Below are positions 6,556-58,600 of a stretch of 58,600 bases of DNA, piece after piece. Within the stretch, counting starts at the first letter, position 1, and every line of letters starts with the position of its first letter. The notes under the pieces were generated by a model. That model saw only the letters and a program-made list of their open reading frames with translations. It did no database searches and had not been told where the DNA came from. The translations under genes and the position numbers were made by a program. Location: NCBI GenBank assembly GCA_003282435.1, contig QBZG01000007.1, positions 1 through 58,600 on the forward strand, given 5' to 3'. The DNA comes from SAR116 cluster bacterium AG-335-B03. GTDB lineage: Bacteria > Pseudomonadota > Alphaproteobacteria > Puniceispirillales > Marisalimonadaceae.

Positions 6556-7035
6556 ATGGACAAAATACCATTTACATTATCTGGGCTTGAAAAGATTAAA
6601 TCTGAACTTAGTGATTTAAAAAAATCTGATCGACCTAAAGTAATACAAGCAATTGCCGTTGCTAGAGAACACGGTGATCTTAAAGAAAATGCTGAATACC
6701 ACGCTGCAAAAGATAAACAATCATTCATTGAAGGAAGAATTACAGAACTCGAGGATGTAACTAGTAGAGCCGAAGTAATAAATCTTAGTAAATTATCAGG
6801 TGAAACTGTAACTTTTGGGACTAAAGTCAAAATCTTAGATGAAGAGAATAATCAGGAAATAGATTATCAAATAGTGGGACCATATGAAGCTAATCTGGAG
6901 TTAAAACTCATATCAACAGCTTCACCAATAGCTAAAGCATTAATAGGCAAAGAAGAAGGTGCATCCGTTGTTGTTTCCACTCCTGGTGGAACTAAACATT
7001 ATGAGATATTGTCAATCGAGGTTATTCCGACATAA
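6556..7035 (+). CDS. greA: Transcription elongation factor GreA
   Basis: Rescues backtracked RNA polymerase by stimulating cleavage of the nascent transcript. The N-terminal coiled coil carries the GreA signature, with SDRPKVIQAIAVAREHGDLKENAEYHAAKD and its acidic tip residues; the C-terminal FKBP-like domain includes FGTKVKILDEENNQ and SPIAKALIGKEEG. The frame is open upstream to a TTG at 6532, but the ATG at 6556 gives MDKIPFTLSGLEKIK, the normal N-terminus, and a normal length of 159 aa, so I chose it. The gene overlaps the tail of the oppositely oriented lrp-type gene by 14 nt. Confidence 0.95.
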   Translation: MDKIPFTLSGLEKIKSELSDLKKSDRPKVIQAIAVAREHGDLKENAEYHAAKDKQSFIEGRITELEDVTSRAEVINLSKLSGETVTFGTKVKILDEENNQEIDYQIVGPYEANLELKLISTASPIAKALIGKEEGASVVVSTPGGTKHYEILSIEVIPT

Positions 7036-7510
7036 TTTCAAATGGAATTTCTGGTAAACTTTTGATACTTCTTATATTTAATGAAGTTTTAACATTACTA
7101 ACTTTAGGAGCTTGAGTAAGATTTTTTGTTAAGAATATTTGAAAATGATCCCAGTCTTTAGCAACAATTTTTAAGAGGAAATCAACTTCTCCAACAAGCA
7201 TATAACACTCTCTTACTTCAGGAAAAAGAGAGATGTAATTTTCAAAAATTTTTAGATCAGTTTCAGCTTGACTTTCAAGTCCCACATGAGCAAAAACTGT
7301 CACTTTAAAACCTAAGAGTTCTGGGTTTAAAATAGCGTTATAACCTCGAATGAAATTCCTCTTCTCTAAAGATTTAACTCGTCTTAAGCATGAAGGGGGA
7401 GAAATGTTAACTATATGAGCTAGTTCTACATTACTGATTTTACCATTTTTTTGTAATTCGCTTAGTATCGAAAGATCAATACTATCCAGCTTAGTTTTTT
7501 CGTTTTTCAT
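7022..7510 (-). CDS. Lrp/AsnC-family transcriptional regulator (first copy)
   Basis: DNA-binding regulator of 162 aa that probably responds to an amino acid. An N-terminal winged helix-turn-helix (about residues 8-60) contains SNVELAHIVNISPPSCLRRVKSLE, and a C-terminal RAM/ligand domain follows (VTVFAHVGL, CYMLVGEVDFLLKIVAKD). The recognition helix CLRRVKSLE is identical to that of the second Lrp-type gene in this window at 53,044. It is divergent from the ELM1-like gene over a 123-bp gap holding a palindrome, so that gene or the regulator itself is a plausible target. The effector cannot be predicted. Confidence 0.9.
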   Translation of the reverse strand: MKNEKTKLDSIDLSILSELQKNGKISNVELAHIVNISPPSCLRRVKSLEKRNFIRGYNAILNPELLGFKVTVFAHVGLESQAETDLKIFENYISLFPEVRECYMLVGEVDFLLKIVAKDWDHFQIFLTKNLTQAPKVSNVKTSLNIRSIKSLPEIPFEIMSE

Positions 7511-7548
7511 TTTATTAATATTTCTTTATAGTATTTGGTAAATAAATT

Positions 7549-7561
7549 GTAATAATATTAC
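7549..7561. promoter_or_regulatory. Palindrome, possible Lrp operator
   Basis: GTAATAATATTAC is a perfect 13-nt palindrome with 6-bp arms around a central A. It sits in the gap between the divergent Lrp-type gene and the ELM1-like gene, next to a TATAAT at 7563-7568. Lrp-family proteins bind AT-rich imperfect palindromes and usually control themselves. A palindrome of the same layout lies beside the second Lrp-type gene. The site is inferred, and its arms are low in complexity. Confidence 0.35.
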
Positions 7562-7633
7562 TATAATGAGTACATATATACAATTTTATTTCAGAAAATA
7601 ATTTAATTATAGAATATAATAAATTTTAGTGAG

Positions 7634-8602
7634 TTGACGTTGAAAAAATCAACAAAAATCGATGCTTGGGTAATAAGCGATGGATCAAAAGGAATGGAAA
7701 ATCAGTCTCTAGCACTTGCCAAATTATTGAACATAAATTTTGAATTAGTTAAATACAATCCACCTTATTTTTTAAAAAAGTTTCCATTAATCACAAAATT
7801 ATTTATTTCTTCTGTTAAAGACCATTTGCTGAAAAATAAATCTCCACCTTCTTTTATAATTACAACCGGCAAACGAATGGCTGGAGTTTCAATTGCTTTA
7901 AAATTTATTCTGAAAGATAAAGTTAAAAATATTCATATTCAAAACCCAAAATTACCTTTTGAATATTTTGATTTATTACTTATTCCAGAACACGACAACA
8001 TAACTGCCAAAAATGTTATACAAACTAAAGGGGCACTTACTTTCTTTAATTTTAATGAATTAAATAAATTTCAAGAAAGAGAAATAAACTTGATAAAAGG
8101 AAGTAAAAAAAATCTTGTTCTTTTGATGATTGGCGGGAATAGTAAAAGATACAAACCTAAGAATTGTGATTATTATTATTTAAGCATGAAAATACTTGAA
8201 GCGACAAAAAATCTTAACTGTAAGTTACTTGTTTTGCTTTCTAGACGTACACCTTTAAAGGCTGCTAAAATTTTAAATTATTCATTTATAAAACATGATG
8301 AAAATTTTCAAATAGTAACTTCAACTGAACAAAACCCTTATCCAGAAATTTTGCAAATAGCCGATTATATTATAGTAACAAGCGATAGTGTTAATATGGT
8401 TTCAGAAACTGCAACATTACCTATACCTTTATTTGTATCAAAGTTCTCAAAAGAAACTGGTAAAATTTCTAATTTCTTAAAAAATCTTGAAGACCTAGGA
8501 ATTTTAAAAAAATTTGAAGGACAATTATTTCATTATTACAAAAATACATTGAAAACCAATCAGGAAACTATTTTAAAAGTTAACAAGCTTTTGGGACTCT
8601 AA
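7634..8602 (+). CDS. ELM1/GtrOC1 family (DUF1022-type) putative glycosyltransferase-like protein
   Basis: Protein of 322 aa resembling the family named after plant mitochondrial fission factor ELM1 (COG3660), common in alphaproteobacteria and of unknown biochemical role. The family start DAWVISDGSKGMENQSLALAKLL is clear. Further conserved parts are PSFIITTGKRMAGVSIALK, IHIQNPKLPFEYFDLLLIPEHD, LMIGGNSKRY and IIVTSDSVNMVSETATL, which resemble a GT-B sugar-nucleotide fold. Initiation is unclear: TTG at 7634 or TTG at 7640, neither with a strong ribosome site, though GTGAG is better spaced for 7640. The last 30 nt overlap the oppositely oriented selO gene. Confidence 0.75.
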   Translation: MTLKKSTKIDAWVISDGSKGMENQSLALAKLLNINFELVKYNPPYFLKKFPLITKLFISSVKDHLLKNKSPPSFIITTGKRMAGVSIALKFILKDKVKNIHIQNPKLPFEYFDLLLIPEHDNITAKNVIQTKGALTFFNFNELNKFQEREINLIKGSKKNLVLLMIGGNSKRYKPKNCDYYYLSMKILEATKNLNCKLLVLLSRRTPLKAAKILNYSFIKHDENFQIVTSTEQNPYPEILQIADYIIVTSDSVNMVSETATLPIPLFVSKFSKETGKISNFLKNLEDLGILKKFEGQLFHYYKNTLKTNQETILKVNKLLGL

Positions 8603-45734: not shown

Positions 45735-46874
45735 TTAGGCATTAGGCATTAAAATTTGTCTAACCACCTCTCCCTTTGATAACTTATCAAAACCTTCATT
45801 TAAGTCATCAAATGTTATTTTCCCATCAATTAATTTATCTACTGGCAGACGTCCTTGTTGAAATAAATTCAAAAATCTAGGAACATCTCTAACTGGAACA
45901 CACGAACCCATATAACTTCCTAATATTGACTTTTCTTGAGCAACTAGATCACTGTGGTTAAAACTAAATTGGGTATTAATTGGTGATAATCCTGCTGTAA
46001 TGACTGATCCTCCATATCTAATAATTTGATATGCTGTGTTCATAGCCTGGATAACTCCAGCTAAGTCAATCGCATAGTCAACACCTCCATTAGTTAAGGT
46101 TCTAATTTCTTCAATAGTGTCATTATTTCTGCTATCAAAGCAGTGTGTTGCACCGAGCTCTTCTGCTCTACTAAATTTTGACGGGTCAATATCTATTGCA
46201 ATAATAGTTTCTGCTCCCCCAAGTTTTGCACCTATTATACCATTAAGTCCAACACCTCCTAAACCAATTATAGCTACAGAATCTCCTGGTCTAATTCTAG
46301 CCGTGTTTATTACTGCGCCCACCCCAGTCATAACAGCACAGCCAAAAAGAGCTGCATCTTGAATATCAACAGATTTGTCTATTACAACTACAGATCCTCT
46401 ATCGACAACGTTATATTGTGACATGCATGAAATACCTGTATGGTGATTAAGTTTATTTCCATCCAAGTCTGAAAGCCTGCTTCCTCCTGACATTAATTCA
46501 CCTTTTCCTTTAGTAGCTGCTGCAAGCTCACAAACTTGAGGCCTACCCTCAAGGCATCTTCTGCACCTTCCACATGATGGAGAAAATTGAAAGGCCACGT
46601 GATCTCCAACCTTTACATCTTTGATTGCACTTCCTAATTCAACAACCTCTCCCGAGCCTTCATGACCAATCACTAAAGGTAAAGGCATCACTCTTGAGCC
46701 ATTAATTACAGACAGATCTGAATGGCACAATCCTGCTCCCATAACTTTTACAAGTATTTCATTCTCTAAGGGAGGAGCAATTTTAATTTCCTCAATAGAT
46801 AGTGGTTTTGATTCTTTATAGGGCTCTGTTAATTTATTATCTCTAATAACTGCGGCTTTGCATGTAATTGACAT
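45735..46874 (-). CDS. Zinc-dependent alcohol dehydrogenase (end of nitrile hydratase operon)
   Basis: Medium-chain dehydrogenase of 379 aa. Catalytic zinc ligands lie in GAGLCHSDLSVING and IGHEGSGEVVELG; the structural zinc site is CGRCRRCLEGRPQVCE. The Rossmann motif is IIGLGGVGLNGIIGAKLGGAETIIAIDID, with a terminal Asp that favours NAD. It is close to the class III/aryl-alcohol-type group. Its start directly follows the stop of the nitrile hydratase activator gene, so it is the last gene of that operon. It may oxidise an alcohol released or made during nitrile use. Confidence 0.88.
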   Translation of the reverse strand: MSITCKAAVIRDNKLTEPYKESKPLSIEEIKIAPPLENEILVKVMGAGLCHSDLSVINGSRVMPLPLVIGHEGSGEVVELGSAIKDVKVGDHVAFQFSPSCGRCRRCLEGRPQVCELAAATKGKGELMSGGSRLSDLDGNKLNHHTGISCMSQYNVVDRGSVVVIDKSVDIQDAALFGCAVMTGVGAVINTARIRPGDSVAIIGLGGVGLNGIIGAKLGGAETIIAIDIDPSKFSRAEELGATHCFDSRNNDTIEEIRTLTNGGVDYAIDLAGVIQAMNTAYQIIRYGGSVITAGLSPINTQFSFNHSDLVAQEKSILGSYMGSCVPVRDVPRFLNLFQQGRLPVDKLIDGKITFDDLNEGFDKLSKGEVVRQILMPNA

Positions 46875-47237
46875 TTAAGTGCTCCTTTGTTTAATCTTTA
46901 CCGGCTTACCATGAGGCGTTGACAAATAAGCGTTAGTCCAATCTTTTTTCAAAAGTGACAAAATATTTGAGTTTCCTAATTTCTTTGAAATAATAATTTC
47001 CTCAAGTGCGATCAGCCAACAGTTAAAATAATCATCATTACCATCTAAACTATTTAGTTCAAGCCTTGATTCATTCAGAGATTTTCCAAAAAATTGAACA
47101 AACTCCTTCCAGGAGAAGTTCCCTGTTTCTGATAATTGGACTGTAATAGCAAACAACTGACTATGCCAAGGATTTTGAAAAACTACATCATCTTCTATTT
47201 TATTTGTAAATGGTAGAATATAATCAAGTGTATTCAT
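46875..47237 (-). CDS. Nitrile hydratase activator (accessory protein)
   Basis: Protein of 120 aa homologous to the N-terminal part of the nitrile hydratase beta subunit. In characterised cobalt enzymes such small proteins hold the alpha subunit while cobalt is inserted and the cysteines are oxidised, then swap for beta. The family traits are FQNPWHSQLFAITVQLSETGNFSWKEFVQFFG, YFNCWLIALEEIIISKKL and TPHGKPVKI. It lies 19 nt after the beta gene and touches the dehydrogenase gene. The presence of a separate activator supports a functional metallo-enzyme. Confidence 0.87.
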   Translation of the reverse strand: MNTLDYILPFTNKIEDDVVFQNPWHSQLFAITVQLSETGNFSWKEFVQFFGKSLNESRLELNSLDGNDDYFNCWLIALEEIIISKKLGNSNILSLLKKDWTNAYLSTPHGKPVKIKQRST

Positions 47238-47256
47238 TTTAATCTCAAATAAATCT

Positions 47257-47994
47257 TTAAGCTTTAATTTTAAGATAGGGTTCCCATAGATCTAAATAAA
47301 TTTTATCGTTACCATTTTCTGCTGCAAGCCCCCACAATTCAGATGCTTTAAACTCTACCGTATATAGAGGCAAAGGATTTTCTCCAATTCCATGCGCATT
47401 TTTATCAGGAAAAACGTGAGTGCCATTATAAGAAAATATTTTCCCTTCACAACCCATTGCATACGAAGGTAAACGAGTATGACCACCTATAACATTTTCA
47501 TTAGGATTATATTTCAAGGTTATGACATTATCGCCAATTTTATGTATAGGAGTTATATCTGTTTTTCTAAGGGAAGGTCCACCCCACCCCAAAGTTTTTT
47601 GAACATCTTTTGCAAGCCAAGTCCTTTTATCTAATTTAACATTTTCGTTCAAATCTTCAGTTGAGTTATCTTCTTGAACTAAACTTATAAACTTTTTTAA
47701 CTCTTCTATGGAAACCAATTTTTTGTCAACCAGAAGATTAGTAAGGCCGGCCAACCACTTTTCATAATATGAATAATTCATATAATCCTTTGGTGGCAGG
47801 CACTCTCTGTAGTGTCTGCTTACATCTAGGTTCCATTCACCAAGTGCTCCAGCAGCGAGTGTTATAGCCCAAGCTTTTGCATGCCATTCATGTTTGAAAG
47901 TAGGCTCACTATTTTCAACCTGATTGTTTTTATTTCTGGGAACTGGTATAGGACCGTCTCCATAGCGACCTCCCATATCATGAAGTCTACTCAT
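47257..47994 (-). CDS. nthB: Nitrile hydratase beta subunit
   Basis: Beta subunit of 245 aa that forms the alpha-beta dimer and lines the active site. Family features: start [68 protein letters not shown] with the conserved arginine, and the C-terminal SH3-like half [27 protein letters not shown] and [12 protein letters not shown]. Its start overlaps the alpha stop as ATGA. The full-length subunit speaks against thiocyanate hydrolase or split three-subunit forms. Confidence 0.93.
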
Positions 47995-48638
47995 TTTGAA
48001 TTCTCCGGTAAACCTGTTCCAATCATAGAGTTGCGCGTTACTAACTCTGCTAACTGCTCTTCACTCATATTTTCCGTTCCATCTGGTCTTATAGGTAAAA
48101 CTAAATATCTCAATTCAGCAGTTGAGTCCCAAACTTTAATTTCGATTTTTGGATCAATATTTAATCCAAATTCTGAAAGAACTTTTCTAGGTTCTCTTAC
48201 TGTTCTAGATCTATATTCATCACTCTTATACCATGTTGGAGGAATACCTAATACTGGCCAGGGATAACAGCTACATAAAGTACAAACTACTACGTTATGA
48301 ATGTCCGCAGTATTCTCAACCACAACCATATTTTCACCTTGCCTACCCTGATAACTCAACTCTCTAATGGCTGCTGTAGCGTCATCAAGGAGTCTTTTTT
48401 TATAATTTTCATCTACCCATGCCTTAGCTATAACTTTGGCACCATTTTGTGGGCCTATTCTATTTTCGTAAGTATCTATCAATTCATCTAAGGTTTTTGA
48501 GTCTATTAACCCTTTGCTTAAAAGTAATGTTTCAATTGCTTTTACTCTTAATTCCGGATCTGAAGGTAAGTGTGAATGTGCGTCATCTTTTTTATGACCT
48601 TGACTTTGATGCAGATTATGATCGTTATTTGAATTCAT
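47991..48638 (-). CDS. nthA: Nitrile hydratase alpha subunit, cobalt type
   Basis: Metal-binding subunit of the enzyme that hydrates nitriles to amides, 215 aa. The metal motif is Cys119-Thr-Leu-Cys122-Ser-Cys124 in [16 protein letters not shown]; the Thr after the first Cys is the pattern of cobalt enzymes, while iron enzymes have Ser. The oxidised Cys pair and backbone amides bind the metal. [23 protein letters not shown] and [26 protein letters not shown] are also typical. The first 23 residues carry five His, a possible metal-handling segment. It follows a dehydrogenase gene after 45 nt. Confidence 0.95.
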
Positions 48639-48683
48639 TTTATTTGCTCACGATTATTAATTTCTTACTTGGTTACATTAATT

Positions 48684-49730
48684 TTATTTAGGGACTAATA
48701 CTATTCTACCATTGACTTTGCCAGCTCTAAGATCTGCCATAGCTTGATTTGCTGTTTCTAAATATTGTTTCTTTACTGGTATAAGTTTAATTTTTCCTGA
48801 TTTTATAATTTCTACTAATTCTTTTAGTTCTCTCAATTCTCCAACATAAGAGCCCCTTAAAGTAATTGATCTCATTGGTACTAAAGGCAAAGATATTTTA
48901 AGTGAGCCACCATATAATCCAACAACAATGACCATTCCTCCTTTTTTTATAAGAGATAAGCCAAAATCAGTTGTCTGAGGCATCCCTACAAAATCAATTG
49001 CTGCTACAGCGCCTATTCCTATAATTTTTCTAATTGTTTCTTCGTCTTCAGGAGAAAAAGCCTGATCAGCTCCAGCTTCAATTGCTTTTTCTCTTTTTTC
49101 TTTATCATTATCTATAACTAATATTTTTGCATTATGAACAGCTGGGGATAATAAAATTCCGTTTATACCTACCCCACCAGCTCCAATTATTATTATCCAA
49201 TCGTCCACAAAAGTTTTTGGTATTTTTTTTAATGCGCTATATGCCGTTAAACCAGAACAGGCATATGGAGCTGCTACAGCTGGATCCATGTCTCCATAAG
49301 ACACAAGATATTTGCTATCTGGAACAATTATATGATCTGAATACCCTCCGTTAAGGCGTGCACCTAAATATTTGGGAGCTTCACACAAAGTTTCATTTTC
49401 TTTTTTACATGCTTCACATAATCCGCACCCAATCCAAGGAAAAACAATCCCGCTATCTCCAATATTAACATCTTCTGCCTCTTCACCTATATCAACAACT
49501 GACCCTGTAATTTCATGTCCTGGTGTGAACGGTAGTTTTGTTCCTCTGTCAGCCAAAGTAATTCGCTTTCCATCACCAAGGTCAAAATAACCGTCAGATA
49601 AGTGAATATCACTATGACATACTCCGCAAGCGGAAATTTTTACAAGTATTTCTTTTCCTTGCGGTTTAGGGTTTTCATATTCTCTGAGTTCTAAAGGTTT
49701 CCCAAAATCTATAACTTGATAACTTTTCAT
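48684..49730 (-). CDS. Zinc-dependent alcohol dehydrogenase (upstream of nitrile hydratase)
   Basis: Medium-chain dehydrogenase of 348 aa. The catalytic zinc site lies in SACGVCHSDIHLSDG and FTPGHEITGSVVDIG; structural zinc cysteines are in WIGCGLCEACKKENETLCE. The nucleotide-binding motif is IIGAGGVGINGILLSPAVHNAKILVIDND. It is only distantly similar to the other dehydrogenase of this operon, so it is not a recent duplicate. It lies 20 nt after the lyase gene and 45 nt before the nitrile hydratase alpha gene. Substrate unknown. Confidence 0.88.
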   Translation of the reverse strand: MKSYQVIDFGKPLELREYENPKPQGKEILVKISACGVCHSDIHLSDGYFDLGDGKRITLADRGTKLPFTPGHEITGSVVDIGEEAEDVNIGDSGIVFPWIGCGLCEACKKENETLCEAPKYLGARLNGGYSDHIIVPDSKYLVSYGDMDPAVAAPYACSGLTAYSALKKIPKTFVDDWIIIIGAGGVGINGILLSPAVHNAKILVIDNDKEKREKAIEAGADQAFSPEDEETIRKIIGIGAVAAIDFVGMPQTTDFGLSLIKKGGMVIVVGLYGGSLKISLPLVPMRSITLRGSYVGELRELKELVEIIKSGKIKLIPVKKQYLETANQAMADLRAGKVNGRIVLVPK

Positions 49731-49750
49731 TTATCACTCCCTAAAATAAA

Positions 49751-50653
49751 TTAATCTCTTTTAGAAGTTTCATAATTACTAGAAATTTCATAATAGTCGT
49801 CAAAGCCAACTTTTTGCCTTAAGTCTTTAAAGTCTAATAAAAATTCAGACCTGTCTTCATCTTTCATCAAAAGTTCTAATGAATTAGTCATAGCTTTCAT
49901 AGCGGAACTCATAACTGTTAACGGATAAACTGTAAGCTTATAACCTATATCTGCGAGCTCTGTCATAGGTAAATTTGGTGTAATACCACCTTCGACTATA
50001 TTCGCTATTTTAAATCCTGGAACTTCTTTACAAATGGTTTTCATTTCATCTTTATTTTTGGGAGCTTCTACAAATAATATATCTGCGCCTAGTTCATAAA
50101 ATTTCTGTGCTCTTGAAATAGATTCTTTCAACCCGTGTGTATGATTGGCATCTGTTCTTGCCATTATTAAAATATCATAGCCTTCACTTCTCATATCACT
50201 TGCAGCTCTTATTCGATCAAAGGCTTCTTCTCTTTCAACAACATCTTTACCTGGAGTATGGCCACATCTTTTTGGCGCTAATTGATCCTCAATTAAAATC
50301 CCTGCGCATCCAGCTTTTGAACATTCTTTTAATGTTCTTCTTACATTCATTGCATTTCCATAACCAGTATCACAATCAACAATCATAGGTATATTAATTG
50401 CATTACATATATTATTTGCTTGATCAAAAACTTCTGAAAAAGTCATAAGCCCAAGATCCGGGGAGCCTATTCTTGAAGCTGAAGCTGCAAATCCTGACAT
50501 GAAAGTAACATCGAATTTCGCTTGCTCTATTAATTTAGCAGAAAGAGCGTCAAAACATGAAGGAATGGGAATAAAATCTCTTTCATTCATAAGTGTTCTT
50601 AAAATATCTGTTTGGCTTTTTTTTAAATTCATACGTTTGAGGATTTTATTCAA
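49751..50653 (-). CDS. Isocitrate lyase/PEP mutase family lyase
   Basis: TIM-barrel enzyme of 300 aa in the family of methylisocitrate lyase, PEP mutase, oxaloacetate hydrolase and dimethylmalate lyase. The magnesium site includes IVDCDTGYGN (Asp93, Asp95), and the loop IEDQLAPKRCGH (residues 122-132) has the Cys used by C-C lyases and hydrolases rather than by PEP mutases. SGFAASASRIGSPDLGL is typical. Its start overlaps the stop of the E1 gene as ATGA, so both are translated together. It most likely cleaves a C-C bond of a 2-hydroxy-dicarboxylate and yields a 2-oxo acid or succinate-like product. Confidence 0.85.
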   Translation of the reverse strand: MNKILKRMNLKKSQTDILRTLMNERDFIPIPSCFDALSAKLIEQAKFDVTFMSGFAASASRIGSPDLGLMTFSEVFDQANNICNAINIPMIVDCDTGYGNAMNVRRTLKECSKAGCAGILIEDQLAPKRCGHTPGKDVVEREEAFDRIRAASDMRSEGYDILIMARTDANHTHGLKESISRAQKFYELGADILFVEAPKNKDEMKTICKEVPGFKIANIVEGGITPNLPMTELADIGYKLTVYPLTVMSSAMKAMTNSLELLMKDEDRSEFLLDFKDLRQKVGFDDYYEISSNYETSKRD

Positions 50654-52929
50654 TTAATACTAAACCCTAGGTTAGAAATGCTTTGAGAGTCAATGGTAAA
50701 CTCTTTAAAGAGATCTTCAACTTTTCCTGTTTGTCCAAAAGAAGAAACGCCTAACGGGATAGTTTTATGGCCATTAATAGAACCTATCCAGGATAAAGTC
50801 ATTGGATGACCATCGATAACTGTTATTATTCTTGTATCCCTTGGAACGCATTCTAGCAGTAATTCTATATGACTTGTACTATTTTGATTTTTCCATTCAT
50901 GAAATAATTTATCAGAGCTTGTAATGCTAAGTACCCCTGAATTTTTAAATTTTTCACCTAACAAAGCTGTAGATTCTATTGCTTCAATTGCAACAGCTCC
51001 TTGATAAACAATAATAACTTCTGGATTTGGACCTGGCTTCTTTAACCAATAACCTCCCTTTATAATATTATTTTTCAACTCGTTATCTATCTCTCTCATA
51101 GGCTGATCAATAGATCTAGTAGTTAATCTCAAGTAAATAGATCCACCAGCCTCGTCTTGTAGGTAATTAAAACCATAATTCATAATTAAAGCTAGTTCAT
51201 CTGCAAAAGCAGGTTCAAAACTTAAAAGTCCTGGCTGACTTATACCAATTAAAGGTGTGCCAATGGACTGATGAGCTCCTCCTTCTGGAGCTAAAGAAAC
51301 TCCTGATGGGGTCCCAATAATCATAAATCTAGCATCTTGATAACAAGCATAATTCATTGCATCTAGTCCCCTAGATATAAACGGGTCATATACCGTACCT
51401 ATTGGAAATAACCTCTCACCAAAAAATTCATGAGAAAGTCCAGCTGCACCTAACATTAAAAAAAGGTTCATCTCAGCAATACCAAGTTCTATATGCTGTC
51501 CTTGAGAAGAAAATATCCATTTTTGAGCCGAAGGAATTTTTCTATCTTTAAAAGTATCTGAACTATCCTTTCTACCAAATAAACCTTTCCTATTAATCCA
51601 AGGACCTAAGTTAGTAGAAACTGAGACATCTGGAGAAGTTGTTAAAATTCTTTGACTAAAGTCAGTATTATTTTTTGCATATTGATCTAAAATTTTACCA
51701 AAAGCATTTTGCGTTGAAATTTTTGTTTCCTTAGTAAAAACGTTTTCATCAACTAATACTTTTTTACTTTGAAATTTTCTATGCTTTGCTTTTTGAAATG
51801 GTAGATTTTTAATATATTTATCTAATTCAACATTATTTTTTTCATCAGAAAATCGATTCCATTCATTCCCATCAGAAATACCATACTTTAATTTAAAACT
51901 ATTCATTTGGGCTTTGGTCATTAATCCTGCATGATTATCTTTATGACCAGCCAAAGGTGTTCCCCAACCTTTGATTGTATAGGCAATGAAAGCCGTTGGT
52001 TTATCATCTTTTACTTTTTCAAAAACTTTTATCAATGTTTGAACACAATGACCGCCTAAATTAGCCATCAGGTCTAGAAACTCGCTATCTGATCTTTTAT
52101 TTATTAATTCAGAAACAATATCCTGATCACCAATATCATCCAATATTCTTTTCTTAAAAGTAGAACCGCCTTCATAGATTAAGGCTGAATAGAGCTGATT
52201 TGGACAATCATCAATCCATTTTTTTAATAAATAACCACCTGGTTCATCAAATGCTTCTTTTTGCAATTTACCATATTTTAAAATAATGAGATTCCAGCCA
52301 AAAGCTTCAAAAACAGAACCTAAACGCTTAGATAATCCTTCATGAACTACTCCGTCTAATGATTGTCTATTATAATCTATTATCCACCAAACATTTCTTA
52401 GGTCATGTTTCCATCCTTCTTGAAGACATTCATAAACATTACCCTCGTCAAGCTCAGCATCTCCAACTAACGCAATCATCCTTCCTTGTGGTATTTTTTT
52501 ACCAAACTGTTTTAATGAAACATAATCTTGTATAAGTGAAACAAAGCTAGTCATCGCTACACCAAGCCCAACCGAACCTGTTGAAATGTCAACATCATCA
52601 ATATCTTTTGTTCTAGAAGGATATGACTGAGCACCTCCAAAGCCTCTAAAATTTTCAATATTTTCTCTAGTTTGCAACCCAGACAAATACTGAATCGCAT
52701 GAAATACTGGACTAGCGTGTGGTTTTACAGCAACCCTATCTTCCGGTCTTAAAATATTAAAATATAATGCTGTCATTATTGAAACAATTGAGGCAGAACT
52801 AGCCTGATGACCTCCTACTTTTAAACCATCTTCATTATTCCTAAGATGGTTAGCATTATGAATCATCCAACAAGAAAGCCATAAAACTTTCTTCTCAATA
52901 ATTTTCAATAATTTATTTTTATTTAACAT
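50650..52929 (-). CDS. Homodimeric-type 2-oxoacid (pyruvate-like) dehydrogenase E1
   Basis: Thiamine-diphosphate enzyme of 759 aa related to AceE (COG2609), shorter than AceE (about 890 aa). ThDP/Mg motif GDAELDEGN (residues 156-164) leads to YNRQSLDG. GHQASSASIVSIMTALYFNIL, ISTGSVGLGVAMTSF, KGWGTPLAGHKDNHAG and the C-terminal FEPAFADELALIMNYG show the whole length. No E2 or E3 gene lies nearby. In Pseudomonas an AceE-like protein (MdeB) beside an Lrp-type regulator (MdeR) acts on 2-oxobutyrate; here an Lrp gene is also divergent. It is the first gene of the nitrile hydratase operon. Confidence 0.85.
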   Translation of the reverse strand: MLNKNKLLKIIEKKVLWLSCWMIHNANHLRNNEDGLKVGGHQASSASIVSIMTALYFNILRPEDRVAVKPHASPVFHAIQYLSGLQTRENIENFRGFGGAQSYPSRTKDIDDVDISTGSVGLGVAMTSFVSLIQDYVSLKQFGKKIPQGRMIALVGDAELDEGNVYECLQEGWKHDLRNVWWIIDYNRQSLDGVVHEGLSKRLGSVFEAFGWNLIILKYGKLQKEAFDEPGGYLLKKWIDDCPNQLYSALIYEGGSTFKKRILDDIGDQDIVSELINKRSDSEFLDLMANLGGHCVQTLIKVFEKVKDDKPTAFIAYTIKGWGTPLAGHKDNHAGLMTKAQMNSFKLKYGISDGNEWNRFSDEKNNVELDKYIKNLPFQKAKHRKFQSKKVLVDENVFTKETKISTQNAFGKILDQYAKNNTDFSQRILTTSPDVSVSTNLGPWINRKGLFGRKDSSDTFKDRKIPSAQKWIFSSQGQHIELGIAEMNLFLMLGAAGLSHEFFGERLFPIGTVYDPFISRGLDAMNYACYQDARFMIIGTPSGVSLAPEGGAHQSIGTPLIGISQPGLLSFEPAFADELALIMNYGFNYLQDEAGGSIYLRLTTRSIDQPMREIDNELKNNIIKGGYWLKKPGPNPEVIIVYQGAVAIEAIESTALLGEKFKNSGVLSITSSDKLFHEWKNQNSTSHIELLLECVPRDTRIITVIDGHPMTLSWIGSINGHKTIPLGVSSFGQTGKVEDLFKEFTIDSQSISNLGFSIN

Positions 52930-52985: not shown

Positions 52986-53014
52986 TTTCAATTTTAGCAT
53001 AATATGCTTATAAT
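52986..53014 (+). promoter_or_regulatory. Putative promoter of the second Lrp-type gene with overlapping palindrome
   Basis: A perfect TATAAT lies at 53009-53014, with a weak TTTCAA at 52986-52991 after a 17-nt spacer. Within the spacer, AGCATAATATGCT (52996-53008) is a perfect palindrome, 6-bp arms around a central A, ending next to the -10. A wider pair of arms, AAAGATAA (52969-52976) and TTATCTTT (53014-53021), flanks it. The position is ideal for self-repression by the Lrp protein and for control of the divergent operon. Sequence pattern only. Confidence 0.45.
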
Positions 53015-53043: not shown

Positions 53044-53520
53044 GTGGGTCTTTTGAGCAATATTGATAGAATAGACCAAAAAATAATATTTTTTCTTCAA
53101 AAGGACGGTCGATTAACAAATTTTGATTTGGCTGAAAAGGTAGGACTATCTCCATCACCTTGTTTAAGAAGAGTAAAAAGTTTAGAACAAAAAGGTTTAA
53201 TTGCTGGCTATACTGCAATTATAGATGAAGTATCTTATGGGTATCCAGTAACAGCATTTGTTTCTGTAAGACTAGAAAATCAAACTGATCAAACCCTTAA
53301 GTCATTCGAAAAGGAAATCACATCTTTGGACGCTGTTATGGATTGTTGGTTGGTAACAGGAAATAGAGATTATTTACTTAGAGTAGTAGCATCAGACTTA
53401 AAAAATTATGAGATTTTTATGAGAGAAGAATTGACCAAAGTAAAAGGGATTGCTTCTATCGAAACAAACTTCGCTCTAGGTAGAGTTAAAACTAAGAACA
53501 ACTTACCTTTAAACTCATAA
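53044..53520 (+). CDS. Lrp/AsnC-family transcriptional regulator (second copy)
   Basis: Regulator of 158 aa, winged helix-turn-helix at about residues 8-60 (LTNFDLAEKVGLSPSPCLRRVKSLEQKGLIAGY) and an effector domain with VTAFVSVRLENQTDQTL and CWLVTGNRDYLLRVVASD. The recognition helix CLRRVKSLE is the same as in the first copy at 7,022. It is divergent from the E1-lyase-nitrile hydratase operon and is the best candidate for its regulator. The apparent start is GTG at 53044; TTG at 53053 is an alternative. A hydrolase gene follows after 21 nt. Confidence 0.9.
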   Translation: MGLLSNIDRIDQKIIFFLQKDGRLTNFDLAEKVGLSPSPCLRRVKSLEQKGLIAGYTAIIDEVSYGYPVTAFVSVRLENQTDQTLKSFEKEITSLDAVMDCWLVTGNRDYLLRVVASDLKNYEIFMREELTKVKGIASIETNFALGRVKTKNNLPLNS

Positions 53521-53541: not shown

Positions 53542-54441
53542 TTGATTGCAGATTTAAAACAAATAAAAGCTGGAGATCTAAATGTAAGCTATTTTGAATC
53601 AGGTCCAATAGATGGTGTTCCCGTTATCCTACTGCATGGCTTTCCTTATGATATTCATTCATACCATGAAGTAGTCCCTGTTTTATCAAATGCTAGATGT
53701 AGAGTAATTGTCCCTTATCTAAGGGGTTATGGAAAAACTTCATTCTTAGCAAAAAAAACATTAAGATCTGGTCAACAAGCTGCACTGGGATACGATTTAT
53801 TAAATTTAATGAATTCAATTAAAATAGATAAAGCTATCTTAGCTGGCTATGATTGGGGAGGTAGGGCGGCGTGTGTAGTTGCTGCTCTTTATCCAGAAAG
53901 ATGTCTAGGATTAATCTCCTGTAATGGCTATAATATTCAAGATATAAAAAATTCTTCAAAACCATCAAATCCAAATACTGAGCAAAAATTATGGTATCAG
54001 TACTTTTTTCATAGTGAAAGAGGTCGTTTGGGCTTAATAAACAAGCGTCATGAATTTATAAAATATCTCTGGCAAACATGGTCACCTTCTTGGGATTTTA
54101 ATGATGAAATATATGGTTTAAGCAAAAACTCATTTGATAATTCTGATTTTGTAGATGTGGTTGTGCATAGTTACAAACATAGATTTGGTATAGTTGCTGG
54201 AGATCCAAAATTTAATTTAATTGAAAAAGACTTATCTAAACAACCAACAATTTTAGTTCCAAGTATAACTATTGACGGTGAAACTGATGGCGTTTCAGGA
54301 TTGTCTAATACTTCTAAAATTAAACAAAAATTCTCAGCTCACGTTAGACATCAAATTCTACCAAACACAGGACATAATGTACCTCAAGAGGATCCTAAAA
54401 ATTTTGCTAGAGCTGTTTTAGAATTAGCATTTATTAATTAA
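53542..54441 (+). CDS. Alpha/beta hydrolase with Asp nucleophile (epoxide hydrolase/dehalogenase-like)
   Basis: Hydrolase of 299 aa. The nucleophile elbow is AGYDWGGRAA with Asp104, as in epoxide hydrolases and haloalkane dehalogenases; the oxyanion loop HGFPYDIHSY (residues 32-41) has the HGFP of epoxide hydrolases. A His lies in LPNTGHNVPQEDP. The cap region includes HSERGRLGLINKRHEFIKYLWQTWSP. The start is a TTG at 53542. It follows the Lrp gene after 21 nt, so it may be co-regulated with the operon facing away. Epoxide or halide substrate is a family guess. Confidence 0.82.
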   Translation: MIADLKQIKAGDLNVSYFESGPIDGVPVILLHGFPYDIHSYHEVVPVLSNARCRVIVPYLRGYGKTSFLAKKTLRSGQQAALGYDLLNLMNSIKIDKAILAGYDWGGRAACVVAALYPERCLGLISCNGYNIQDIKNSSKPSNPNTEQKLWYQYFFHSERGRLGLINKRHEFIKYLWQTWSPSWDFNDEIYGLSKNSFDNSDFVDVVVHSYKHRFGIVAGDPKFNLIEKDLSKQPTILVPSITIDGETDGVSGLSNTSKIKQKFSAHVRHQILPNTGHNVPQEDPKNFARAVLELAFIN

Positions 54442-54444
54442 AAT

Positions 54445-55659
54445 TTATGAATTAGCTATTTGAAGAGGTATACCAAACTCCTTCTGACATATTTCGGCTA
54501 AAATTTTTACCCCCTCATCAATTTCTTCTATTGACGGATTACCAAAACAAAGTCGAATTTTATGATCTCCACTAGAGTTAATCGACCATTCATTTCCAGG
54601 ATTAATCGCGACACCGTCTTTTAATGCAAGCTCGTATAAACGTGACGTATCTATATTATTAGGTAAATTAATCCACACAAAAATTCCACCAACAGGTTTA
54701 TTATAATCTGCTGTAGAACCGAAGTATTTATCTAACGCATTGCATATGGCGTCTGACTTTTTTTTGAGCTCATTTCTAAGTATTTTTATATGGGAATTAA
54801 AATTAATTTTACAAAACTCTGCAAGTGCCATTTGCTCTAATGATCCACTTCCAGCATCAGTTTTATAAGGGAGTATTCTTGATAAAATACTCCAGTCAGC
54901 TGTTAAGTACCCCACCCTTAACGCCGGTGCAATAGATTTTGAAAAAGAGCCACAATATATTACATAACCGTCATTATCAAAGGATTTTATTGCTGGAGGC
55001 CTTTCTTTATCGAAAATAAGATCCGCATAACAATCATCTTCAAAAATTGGTATTTCAAATTTTTTAGATAGTTTTATTAGAGCTTTTCTTTTATTCACAG
55101 ACATAATAGTGCCTGTTGGATTCTGGATTGTTGGAATAGTGTAAATAAATCTTGGTCTGATTTTCTTTTTCTTAAGACTTTCTAAGGTTTGTTCTAAAAC
55201 CTCAATATTCATTCCATCTTTTTCCAATGGAATACCTATCATATTAATGCCGATCCTTCTAAGCCTTGAAATAGTGCCACCATAATTTTCTTCTTCGATT
55301 ATAACTGTGTCGCCTTTTCTTAAAAATGTTTGATTTACTAGATCTAATGCCTGCAATGATCCAGAAACTACTAACACCTCTTTTTCAGAACAGTTAATGC
55401 TCGCACTTTTTTTTAATTGTTTTGAAATGAATTGCCTGAGTGGGAGATATCCTTGAGGACCACTTTCCAATCCATATTTAGCTAATGTTTTTCCCTCTTT
55501 TAAAATTATTTTATCTATAGATTCTTTTAAGGATATAATCGGTATGCTTTCATTATCATTATGCCCACCAATAAAGTTAAACTTTGGATAACCCTTCCAT
55601 TCAATCGCTGGTCCTAAAGCATCTGAGTGTAAAAAACTATTAATATTAAACATATTCAC
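54445..55659 (-). CDS. PLP-dependent aminotransferase (2-aminoadipate/MocR-like group, no HTH)
   Basis: Fold-type I aminotransferase of 404 aa. Features: YGLESGPQGYLPLRQFISKQL, TIPTIQNPTGTIMS, DDCYADLIFD, the PLP lysine in YCGSFSKSIAPALRVGY, and the Arg in KIRLCFGNPS. It resembles the 2-aminoadipate/LysN-type enzymes and the C-terminal domain of MocR regulators but has no winged-helix part. It might move nitrogen from an amino acid in the same pathway as the neighbouring operon. It converges on the Asp-nucleophile hydrolase (3-nt gap) and is divergent from the 122-aa gene. Confidence 0.85.
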   Translation of the reverse strand: MNMFNINSFLHSDALGPAIEWKGYPKFNFIGGHNDNESIPIISLKESIDKIILKEGKTLAKYGLESGPQGYLPLRQFISKQLKKSASINCSEKEVLVVSGSLQALDLVNQTFLRKGDTVIIEEENYGGTISRLRRIGINMIGIPLEKDGMNIEVLEQTLESLKKKKIRPRFIYTIPTIQNPTGTIMSVNKRKALIKLSKKFEIPIFEDDCYADLIFDKERPPAIKSFDNDGYVIYCGSFSKSIAPALRVGYLTADWSILSRILPYKTDAGSGSLEQMALAEFCKINFNSHIKILRNELKKKSDAICNALDKYFGSTADYNKPVGGIFVWINLPNNIDTSRLYELALKDGVAINPGNEWSINSSGDHKIRLCFGNPSIEEIDEGVKILAEICQKEFGIPLQIANS

Positions 55660-57768: not shown

Positions 57769-58600
57769 CTAATTAATGTTAGTTTTATCCTTACCTTTAA
57801 GTCCTAACATTTCTCTTGCTTCATCTGAGGTAGCAACTTCTAACGAGAGACCTTCAAGTATATCTCTAACTCTCTTAACTTGATCTGCATTTGTTTTTGC
57901 AAGGTTACCTGGCCCGTCCCATAAAGAATCTTCAAGACCAACACGAACGTGCGAGCCCAGTGAAGCACCTGTTGCATTCATCTTCATTTGAGTTGCACCA
58001 GCGCCTACAACAGACCACTCATAACCTACATCGCCAAAGAGCTTATCTGCAGTTTTCTTCATATGTAATAAATTATCTACATCTGAGCCTATTCCACCCA
58101 TTATACCCATTACAAATTGAATAAAGTAAGGCCCTTTCAGCATCCCTTCTCTATGGAAATGATGTAAATTATACAAATGACCAACATCATAACATTCAAA
58201 CTCAAACCTAGTGCCATTTTCATAACCAAGTGTCATAATATTTTCTATATCTTCAAACGTATTTTTAAAAAGTGAATGCTTACTTCTTTCAAGCATTTCT
58301 GTTTCCCATTTATGTTTAAATTGATTATGTCTTTTAAGCATTGGAAAAAGACCAAAATTCATTGATCCCATATTTAATGAAGCAAGCTCTGGTTTAAAGT
58401 GCATAGCCGGTTTCATTCTTTCCTCCACAGTCATCTGTGGACCTCCACCAGTTGTTATGTTTATAACAGCATCACACGAGCTTTGTATAGTTGGAAGAAA
58501 CTTTTGAAACTCATCAGGGTCTTGGGTTGGATGTCCGTCAACCTCATCCCTTGCGTGAAGATGAAGAACAGCTGCGCCCGCTTCATGAGCTGCCAAAGAA
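57769..58600 (-). CDS. Beta-keto acid cleavage enzyme (BKACE, DUF849), 5' end beyond right edge
   Basis: Zinc-dependent TIM-barrel enzyme that cleaves a beta-keto acid with acetyl-CoA (for example 3-keto-5-aminohexanoate or dehydrocarnitine), giving an acyl-CoA and acetoacetate. The metal histidines lie in AAVLHLHARDEVDGHPTQDP (HLH); other features are INITTGGGPQMTVEERM, SLNMGSMNFG, ECYDVGHLYNLHHFHREG and SHVRVGLEDSLWDGPGNLAKTNADQVKRV. About 277 residues remain; the first 30 or so are outside the window, so the TTG near 58596 is internal. The exact substrate class cannot be read from the sequence. Confidence 0.9.
   Translation of the reverse strand, partial: SLAAHEAGAAVLHLHARDEVDGHPTQDPDEFQKFLPTIQSSCDAVINITTGGGPQMTVEERMKPAMHFKPELASLNMGSMNFGLFPMLKRHNQFKHKWETEMLERSKHSLFKNTFEDIENIMTLGYENGTRFEFECYDVGHLYNLHHFHREGMLKGPYFIQFVMGIMGGIGSDVDNLLHMKKTADKLFGDVGYEWSVVGAGATQMKMNATGASLGSHVRVGLEDSLWDGPGNLAKTNADQVKRVRDILEGLSLEVATSDEAREMLGLKGKDKTNIN

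Follow-up and report, generated by a model that had tools for sequence, protein, structure and literature searches.

The stretch of DNA analysed here (hereafter the window) comprises 58,600 nucleotides of contig QBZG01000007.1 of SAR116 cluster bacterium AG-335-B03, whose genome has 1.45 Mb and is 66% complete. Between positions 45735 and 52929, a seven-gene operon joins the E1 component of a 2-oxoacid dehydrogenase and a C-C lyase to a cobalt-type nitrile hydratase (NHase), its activator and two alcohol dehydrogenases (ADHs). The existence of this operon was confirmed, as was its conservation within its SAR116 family; its genes fall into separable blocks. The genes, together with the divergent regulator and a candidate operator, are the following:

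50650..52929, minus strand: E1, a 2-oxoacid dehydrogenase of the MdeB-like homodimeric type, 759 aa; probable 2-oxobutyrate E1
49751..50653, minus strand: C-C lyase of the isocitrate lyase / phosphoenolpyruvate (PEP) mutase superfamily with a KRCGH motif; probable start ATG 50632
48684..49730, minus strand: ADH1, a zinc alcohol dehydrogenase; nearest PDB chain 2eer, an NAD-dependent alcohol dehydrogenase
47991..48638, minus strand: NHase alpha, the alpha subunit of a cobalt-type nitrile hydratase (CTLCSC)
47257..47994, minus strand: NHase beta, the nitrile hydratase beta subunit
46875..47237, minus strand: nitrile hydratase activator / accessory protein (TIGR03889)
45735..46874, minus strand: ADH2, a zinc alcohol dehydrogenase of the class I/III-like group
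53044..53520, plus strand: divergent Lrp/AsnC regulator adjoining E1
52994..53010, no strand: candidate operator, a near-perfect 7-3-7 palindrome TTAGCATaatATGCTtA between Lrp and E1

The coordinates bear out the sequence-only reading in that the seven genes occupy the minus strand with gaps of at most 45 nt, the intergenic distances from E1 to ADH2 being, in order, -4, 20, 45, -4, 19 and 0 nt. Of the two ATGA overlaps that it reported, the one between the alpha and beta subunits stands, whereas the one between E1 and the lyase reads TTGA and requires a TTG start at 50653 for the lyase; the start matching the orthologue at locus L051 is the ATG at 50632, 17 nt past the E1 stop. Since promoter-like sites (33 vs 32.5) and terminator-like sites (2 vs 3.4) occurred in scans at the frequency found in shuffled sequence, we can only infer that the seven genes are co-transcribed as one operon. 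The Lrp gene starts 114 nt from E1, divergently, and the palindrome between them is retained with at most 3 mismatches of 15 in 20/20 loci of genera g1 and g3, the same related loci from which the pattern was derived. Among six loci of genera g2 and g4, two matched the pattern at the level of shuffled sequence and one more exceeded that level only marginally.

The family identities assigned earlier (cobalt NHase, 2-oxoacid dehydrogenase E1, PEP mutase-family lyase and two ADHs) were upheld by profile matches. NHase alpha (TIGR01323, 310 bits), NHase beta (TIGR03888, 206 bits) and the activator (TIGR03889, 74 bits) exceed their cut-offs of 250, 152 and 46 bits, respectively, and the CTLCSC motif, the metal motif of cobalt-type nitrile hydratase, is found in 26/26 readable family loci; as judged from motif and profiles, the NHase is of the cobalt type, with its own activator. 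ADH1 and ADH2 match Pfam ADH_N/ADH_zinc_N. The lyase matches Pfam PEP_mutase and carries a K[RK]CGH motif, the catalytic motif of isocitrate lyase-superfamily C-C lyases, in 19/19 family loci with a readable lyase. Its nearest solved relative is the petal death protein (200 bits), with which it has EAP and EGG-x-TP stretches in common, and in sequence it resembles the alkylmalate lyases of the petal-death-protein type. The window-type lyase is like petal death protein, dimethylmalate lyase and methylisocitrate lyase in its fold family and catalytic KRCGH motif, but unlike these relatives in its linkage to a tripartite ATP-independent periplasmic (TRAP) transporter and to E1, and in scoring below the prpB cut-off. 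Finally, E1 matches the Pfam transketolase/pyruvate dehydrogenase E1 domains and shows the thiamine diphosphate (ThDP) motif pattern in 27/27 family loci. It shares with the pyruvate dehydrogenase E1 AceE the homodimeric architecture, but its identity as AceE was rejected, since it scores 162 bits against a cut-off of 860 (TIGR00759); it also differs in that the N-terminal region is missing, the match beginning at profile position 78. The incomplete host genome holds two E2 genes.

The conservation of the operon was followed in 136 genomes of the order, of which 58 belong to the window's family (f1). E1 is present in 57 of these genomes, 45 of them in the window's family, and NHase alpha in 82, 42 of them in the family. 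Both genes occur in 41 family genomes and, in 41/41, they lie at most 8 kb apart on one contig; in the four family genomes with E1 only, E1 lies less than 4 kb from the downstream contig end, and in the one with NHase only, NHase starts 616 nt from a contig end. Additionally, E1 is 95-98% identical in four named records (three SAR116 and one Alpha proteobacterium). The gene order is therefore not unique to this contig, since it recurs in relatives within the SAR116 family. The gene that follows E1 varies: among 37 family genomes it is DctP, of the TRAP transporter, in 16, the lyase in 13 (the window included) and ADH1 in 8. Likewise, the 27 long family loci comprise 12 with the order E1-DctP-DctQ-DctM-lyase-ADH1, seven with E1-lyase-ADH1, seven with E1-ADH1 (six from g2 and g4, one from g1), where NHase stands next to E1 without the lyase, and one cut off after DctM. 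The transporter is thus not in the window operon. On the other hand, ADH1, NHase alpha and beta, the activator and ADH2 are contiguous in 26/27 fetched family loci, the remaining one being cut by a contig end. The unrelated flanks (yajQ and an ABC transporter) are as constant in their order as the operon genes themselves and, consequently, synteny within the family counts for little as evidence of one pathway.

The lyase is associated with an E1 in different settings. In the order, E1 is found in 40/43 lyase-bearing genomes vs 17/93 others (Fisher 2e-17, kinship ignored), and the two genes are close on one contig in 34 of the 40 genomes with both. In f3, another family of the order, four loci (L036, L042, L305 and L306) show the arrangement lyase-TRAP / Lrp / E1 with no NHase nearby. 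At the level of the class, the lyase was detected in 27/385 genomes at 1e-70; the 14 class lyase neighbourhoods fetched outside the order include seven with DctP, DctQ and DctM (L245-L249, L254 and L258) and one, L252, with DctM at the contig end, and E1 was seen only in L258. A further arrangement occurs in a family with genomes mostly of 0.8-1.3 Mb and loci of 29-34% GC, which genome size and composition probably place in SAR11. In this SAR11-like family the lyase is present in 8/60 genomes, with DctPQM in all eight, and a second, divergent AceE lies directly upstream (E1-DctP-Q-M-lyase) in 4/8 of them; no second AceE occurs in the 52 genomes without the lyase (Fisher 1.4e-4, kinship ignored), where the two pieces in one genome were counted as a single split gene and 6/60 genomes had no AceE match at all. 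An E1 therefore adjoins TRAP-lyase in three arrangements, the SAR11-like one included, and the functional tie of the lyase to E1 that had been proposed from the window is supported by independent arrangements. That two different E1 types accompany one and the same transporter-lyase set is what speaks most strongly for a common function.

The second AceE copies adjoining DctPQM-lyase are those of L258 (7204-13596), L293, L294 and L295, and for the copy in L258 the score against TIGR03186 (AKGDH_not_PDH) is a little above that against aceE, although only the aceE cut-off is passed. As for the transporter itself, the L051 genes match the TRAP models dctM (377 bits) and, for DctP (6914-7906), TRAP_S1 (129 bits), with no NCBIfam match for DctQ. 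A ligand was not assigned from solved homologues, since the DctP relatives are sialic-acid-binding and mixed, with a best score of 115 bits.

The probable substrate of E1 was approached through its relatives at 65 loci (L082-L146), 58-62% identical and outside the named SAR116 records (several are named no further than Alphaproteobacteria), taken from the best 80 of 577 confirmed matches. A Lrp gene lies within 3 kb of E1 in 42/65 of these loci and, at the same distance, methionine gamma-lyase is found in 25, 1-aminocyclopropane-1-carboxylate (ACC) deaminase in five and threonine dehydratase in two, so that at least one of the three stands near 31/65, one locus having two; NHase, the lyase and ADH were found within 3 kb of E1 in 0/65. 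One example of each enzyme passes its curated cut-off (methionine gamma-lyase 753 vs 666, ACC deaminase 585 vs 392 and threonine dehydratase 500 vs 317). Methionine gamma-lyase, ACC deaminase and threonine dehydratase all form 2-oxobutyrate and, because all three neighbours make this compound, it is the presumed substrate of E1, which is probably an MdeB-like 2-oxobutyrate E1. The mdeR-mdeA-mdeB genes serve methionine catabolism in Pseudomonas putida. The likeness to that system lies in a Lrp-type regulator near a homodimeric E1, and in the 25 E1 relatives that adjoin methionine gamma-lyase; the operon differs in that it is devoid of methionine gamma-lyase and has the lyase, the NHase and the ADHs instead. 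In fact, methionine gamma-lyase had no match at 1e-60 in 58/58 genomes of the family, many of them incomplete, so that another source of 2-oxobutyrate would be needed. In f3 and f4, a homologue from the pyridoxal phosphate (PLP) family of methionine gamma-lyase, even if only a distant one, occurs in 53 genomes. In genus g6 of f3 (L039, 315-9389), the Lrp-E1 pair adjoins a D-amino-acid dehydrogenase-like gene and an IlvB-like ThDP enzyme, and a racemase-like gene, an enolase-superfamily gene and DctP were also noticed nearby by eye.

Among the loci examined, the NHase-ADH block adjoins E1 only in the window's family. Outside it, 40 NHase loci were inspected, some of them end-cut, comprising 20 of the 40 other NHase-bearing genomes of the order and 20 from among the higher-scoring of 137 further class genomes. 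Within 5 kb of NHase, these loci have the beta subunit in 37, the activator in 36 and an amidase in 11, eight of these amidases forming one similarity cluster, all from f3 and f4, and three being weaker; an E1, lyase or ADH like those of the window was found in 0/40. ADH2 was likewise rejected as a regular NHase partner elsewhere, since no NHase lies within 1.5 kb of its relatives at 29 loci, drawn from 53 matching genomes. In the tree, the alpha subunits of the family group together (100/97) and are separate from the main f3/f4 clade, to which 15 of the 19 other sequences compared from the order belong (L202 was left out, its readable frame being too short); this topology makes it possible that the family NHase was separately acquired rather than vertically descended within the order.

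Nitrile hydratase clusters with an amidase and the aldoxime-nitrile pathway are described in PMC8955678. The window shares with such clusters the alpha, beta and activator genes and the Co-type motif; it is unlike them in that its NHase has no linked amidase and is set in a 2-oxoacid operon with two ADHs. The absence of both usual partners, claimed from the letters alone, agrees with the present results: nine amidase queries match nothing within the window, and the Pfam scan, which covered 40 open reading frames (ORFs) of the window and not the others, yielded no aldoxime dehydratase. The condition named earlier as a refutation, an amidase cluster elsewhere as the regular partner of NHase, applies in part: 8/20 fetched f3/f4 NHase loci have an amidase of the one similarity cluster next to NHase, although the incomplete host genome has no close orthologue of this amidase (best 32%); seven other amidase-signature genes lie elsewhere in that genome. 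Asparagine auxotrophy is predicted in some SAR116 subclades, according to PMC12262181, and for this reason a role of NHase in making asparagine from beta-cyanoalanine was considered.

Some further observations concern the NHase and ADH2 relatives. The NHase alpha frames of two f3 genomes (G088:C35:36066-36659 and G080:C18:26396-26995) are broken by stop codons, which suggests decay. L204 (G103), with matches in G097, G101 and G104, has a pair of ORFs resembling NHase alpha, each of about 330 aa and about 41% identical to the window alpha subunit, at a distance of about 2.8 kb from each other; NHase beta was not found within 5 kb at L204. At L277, an ADH2 relative (51%) adjoins an SDR-like gene and a BKACE gene (62% to the window gene at 57769-58596). 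ADH2 and BKACE, which are about 10 kb apart in the window, may therefore have been linked earlier.

Taken as a whole, the operon would consist of separately inherited catabolic blocks fused around an MdeB-type E1 and its divergent Lrp, with the lyase feeding a 2-oxoacid to E1, a reading that is given roughly even chances of being right. According to it, the TRAP transporter, absent from the operon of the window's lineage, would import a branched or alkyl-substituted malate-type acid, which the lyase would split, releasing a 2-oxoacid, probably 2-oxobutyrate, along with a carboxylic acid; E1, with E2 and E3 encoded elsewhere, would then convert the 2-oxoacid to an acyl-CoA, probably propionyl-CoA. 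The NHase and its activator would hydrate a nitrile to an amide and ADH1 and ADH2 would oxidise an alcohol, and this block may supply the same E1 or may be a co-transcribed passenger. Substrates, reaction direction and regulation are what we infer here from the observed genes, families and linkage patterns. Several observations weigh against this reading. The lyase and E1 are on different contigs in 6/40 order genomes with both, three lyase-bearing order genomes show no E1 match and, among 12 f3 genomes with E1, the lyase is unmatched in six and on another contig in two. Outside the order, 6/14 class lyase neighbourhoods show no TRAP match, six of the seven full TRAP-lyase loci are without E1 of the window type, and 4/8 SAR11-like lyase genomes are without the second AceE. 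Furthermore, all three 2-oxobutyrate-forming enzymes are missing from the 3 kb around E1 in 34/65 of its relatives, and coupling to E2 is uncertain because E1 is without the AceE N-terminal part. The top NCBIfam model for the lyase is prpB (TIGR02317), below cut-off at 252 vs 354 bits. The last point would favour a methylisocitrate lyase acting downstream of E1 and closing a 2-methylcitrate cycle from the propionyl-CoA expected of E1. This is improbable, since the four lyases scanned, from the window, f1, f3 and the SAR11-like family, score 252, 250, 261 and 256, all below 354, for which reason PrpB identity was rejected, and since petal death protein is the nearest solved relative and a TRAP transporter a frequent neighbour; the 40 Pfam-scanned ORFs of the window, the only place where methylcitrate-cycle genes were sought, contained none.

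According to the reading first proposed from the window, all seven genes serve a single nitrile pathway: a cyano compound would be hydrated, and its skeleton would then be oxidised, split by the lyase and decarboxylated through E1. This model agrees with the gene order and with the linkage that ties the lyase to E1. It was nevertheless rejected as the leading explanation and is very improbable, because the blocks assort independently: NHase accompanies E1 without the lyase in 7/27 loci, the lyase accompanies E1 without NHase in f3 and another E1 in the SAR11-like family, and in genus g4 separate contigs carry the lyase and E1 in 4/4 genomes with both. In addition, five fetched g4 loci carry DctPQM-lyase with no E1 or NHase (two from genomes without an E1 match), no NHase match is seen at the fetched lyase loci from outside the family, and the 40 outside NHase loci have no lyase within 5 kb. 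In another reading, the NHase with its activator, ADH1 and ADH2 would be mere passengers: a set for scavenging nitriles or nitrogen that chance has fused to the E1 operon of a streamlined genome and that has no pathway in common with it. Such an account, which merits tentative consideration, fits the restriction of NHase-E1 adjacency to one family among the examined loci, the lack of E1, lyase or a similar ADH around the 40 outside NHase loci, the ADH2 relatives without NHase at 29 loci and the equal conservation of the yajQ and ABC flanks, by which retention needs no shared function; yet the five-gene block follows E1, E1-lyase or E1-TRAP-lyase in 26/27 loci from four genera, and it stays while TRAP and the lyase vary between it and E1. 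Returning to the blocks fused around E1, a fuller form of that reading makes 2-oxobutyrate a hub, on which an imported alkylmalate, through TRAP and the lyase, and a C4 hydroxynitrile, through NHase, an unlinked amidase and ADH, would converge, E1 yielding propionyl-CoA; this form is rather unlikely.

Beyond the Lrp gene, two further genes adjoin the operon:

53542..54441, plus strand: alpha/beta hydrolase adjoining Lrp
54445..55659, minus strand: PLP aminotransferase-fold protein, MocR-like, with no DNA-binding domain match; conserved beside the operon

The alpha/beta hydrolase was undetected in six g2/g4 loci and in L052 (G021), and is fragmentary in L061 (G040), the latter two being g1 loci.

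The component genes are of known kinds. The literature search, whose coverage excluded most subscription papers and preprints, found no paper pairing nitrile hydratase with SAR116 and none pairing mdeB with methionine gamma-lyase, and the terms 'nitrile' and 'TRAP' are absent, by term search, from the main text of the SAR116 genomics papers PMC12262181 and PMC8547437. Neither the seven-gene combination nor the E1-TRAP-lyase module common to the SAR11-like family was found described in the searchable literature. In one lineage, a nitrile hydratase has been placed inside a 2-oxoacid operon, apart from its usual amidase. If the 2-oxobutyrate hub were true, it would constitute an undescribed route for the assimilation of nitrile carbon and nitrogen in SAR116, with a TRAP-lyase-E1 arm common to SAR11. 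SAR116 and SAR11 are among the commonest heterotrophs of the ocean, and many of their substrates are unknown. Since the transporter-lyase-E1 module recurs with two E1 types, seawater is predicted to contain a real organic acid, as yet unnamed, that it serves, and DctP, the lyase and E1 are the proteins whose ligand screening would identify it.

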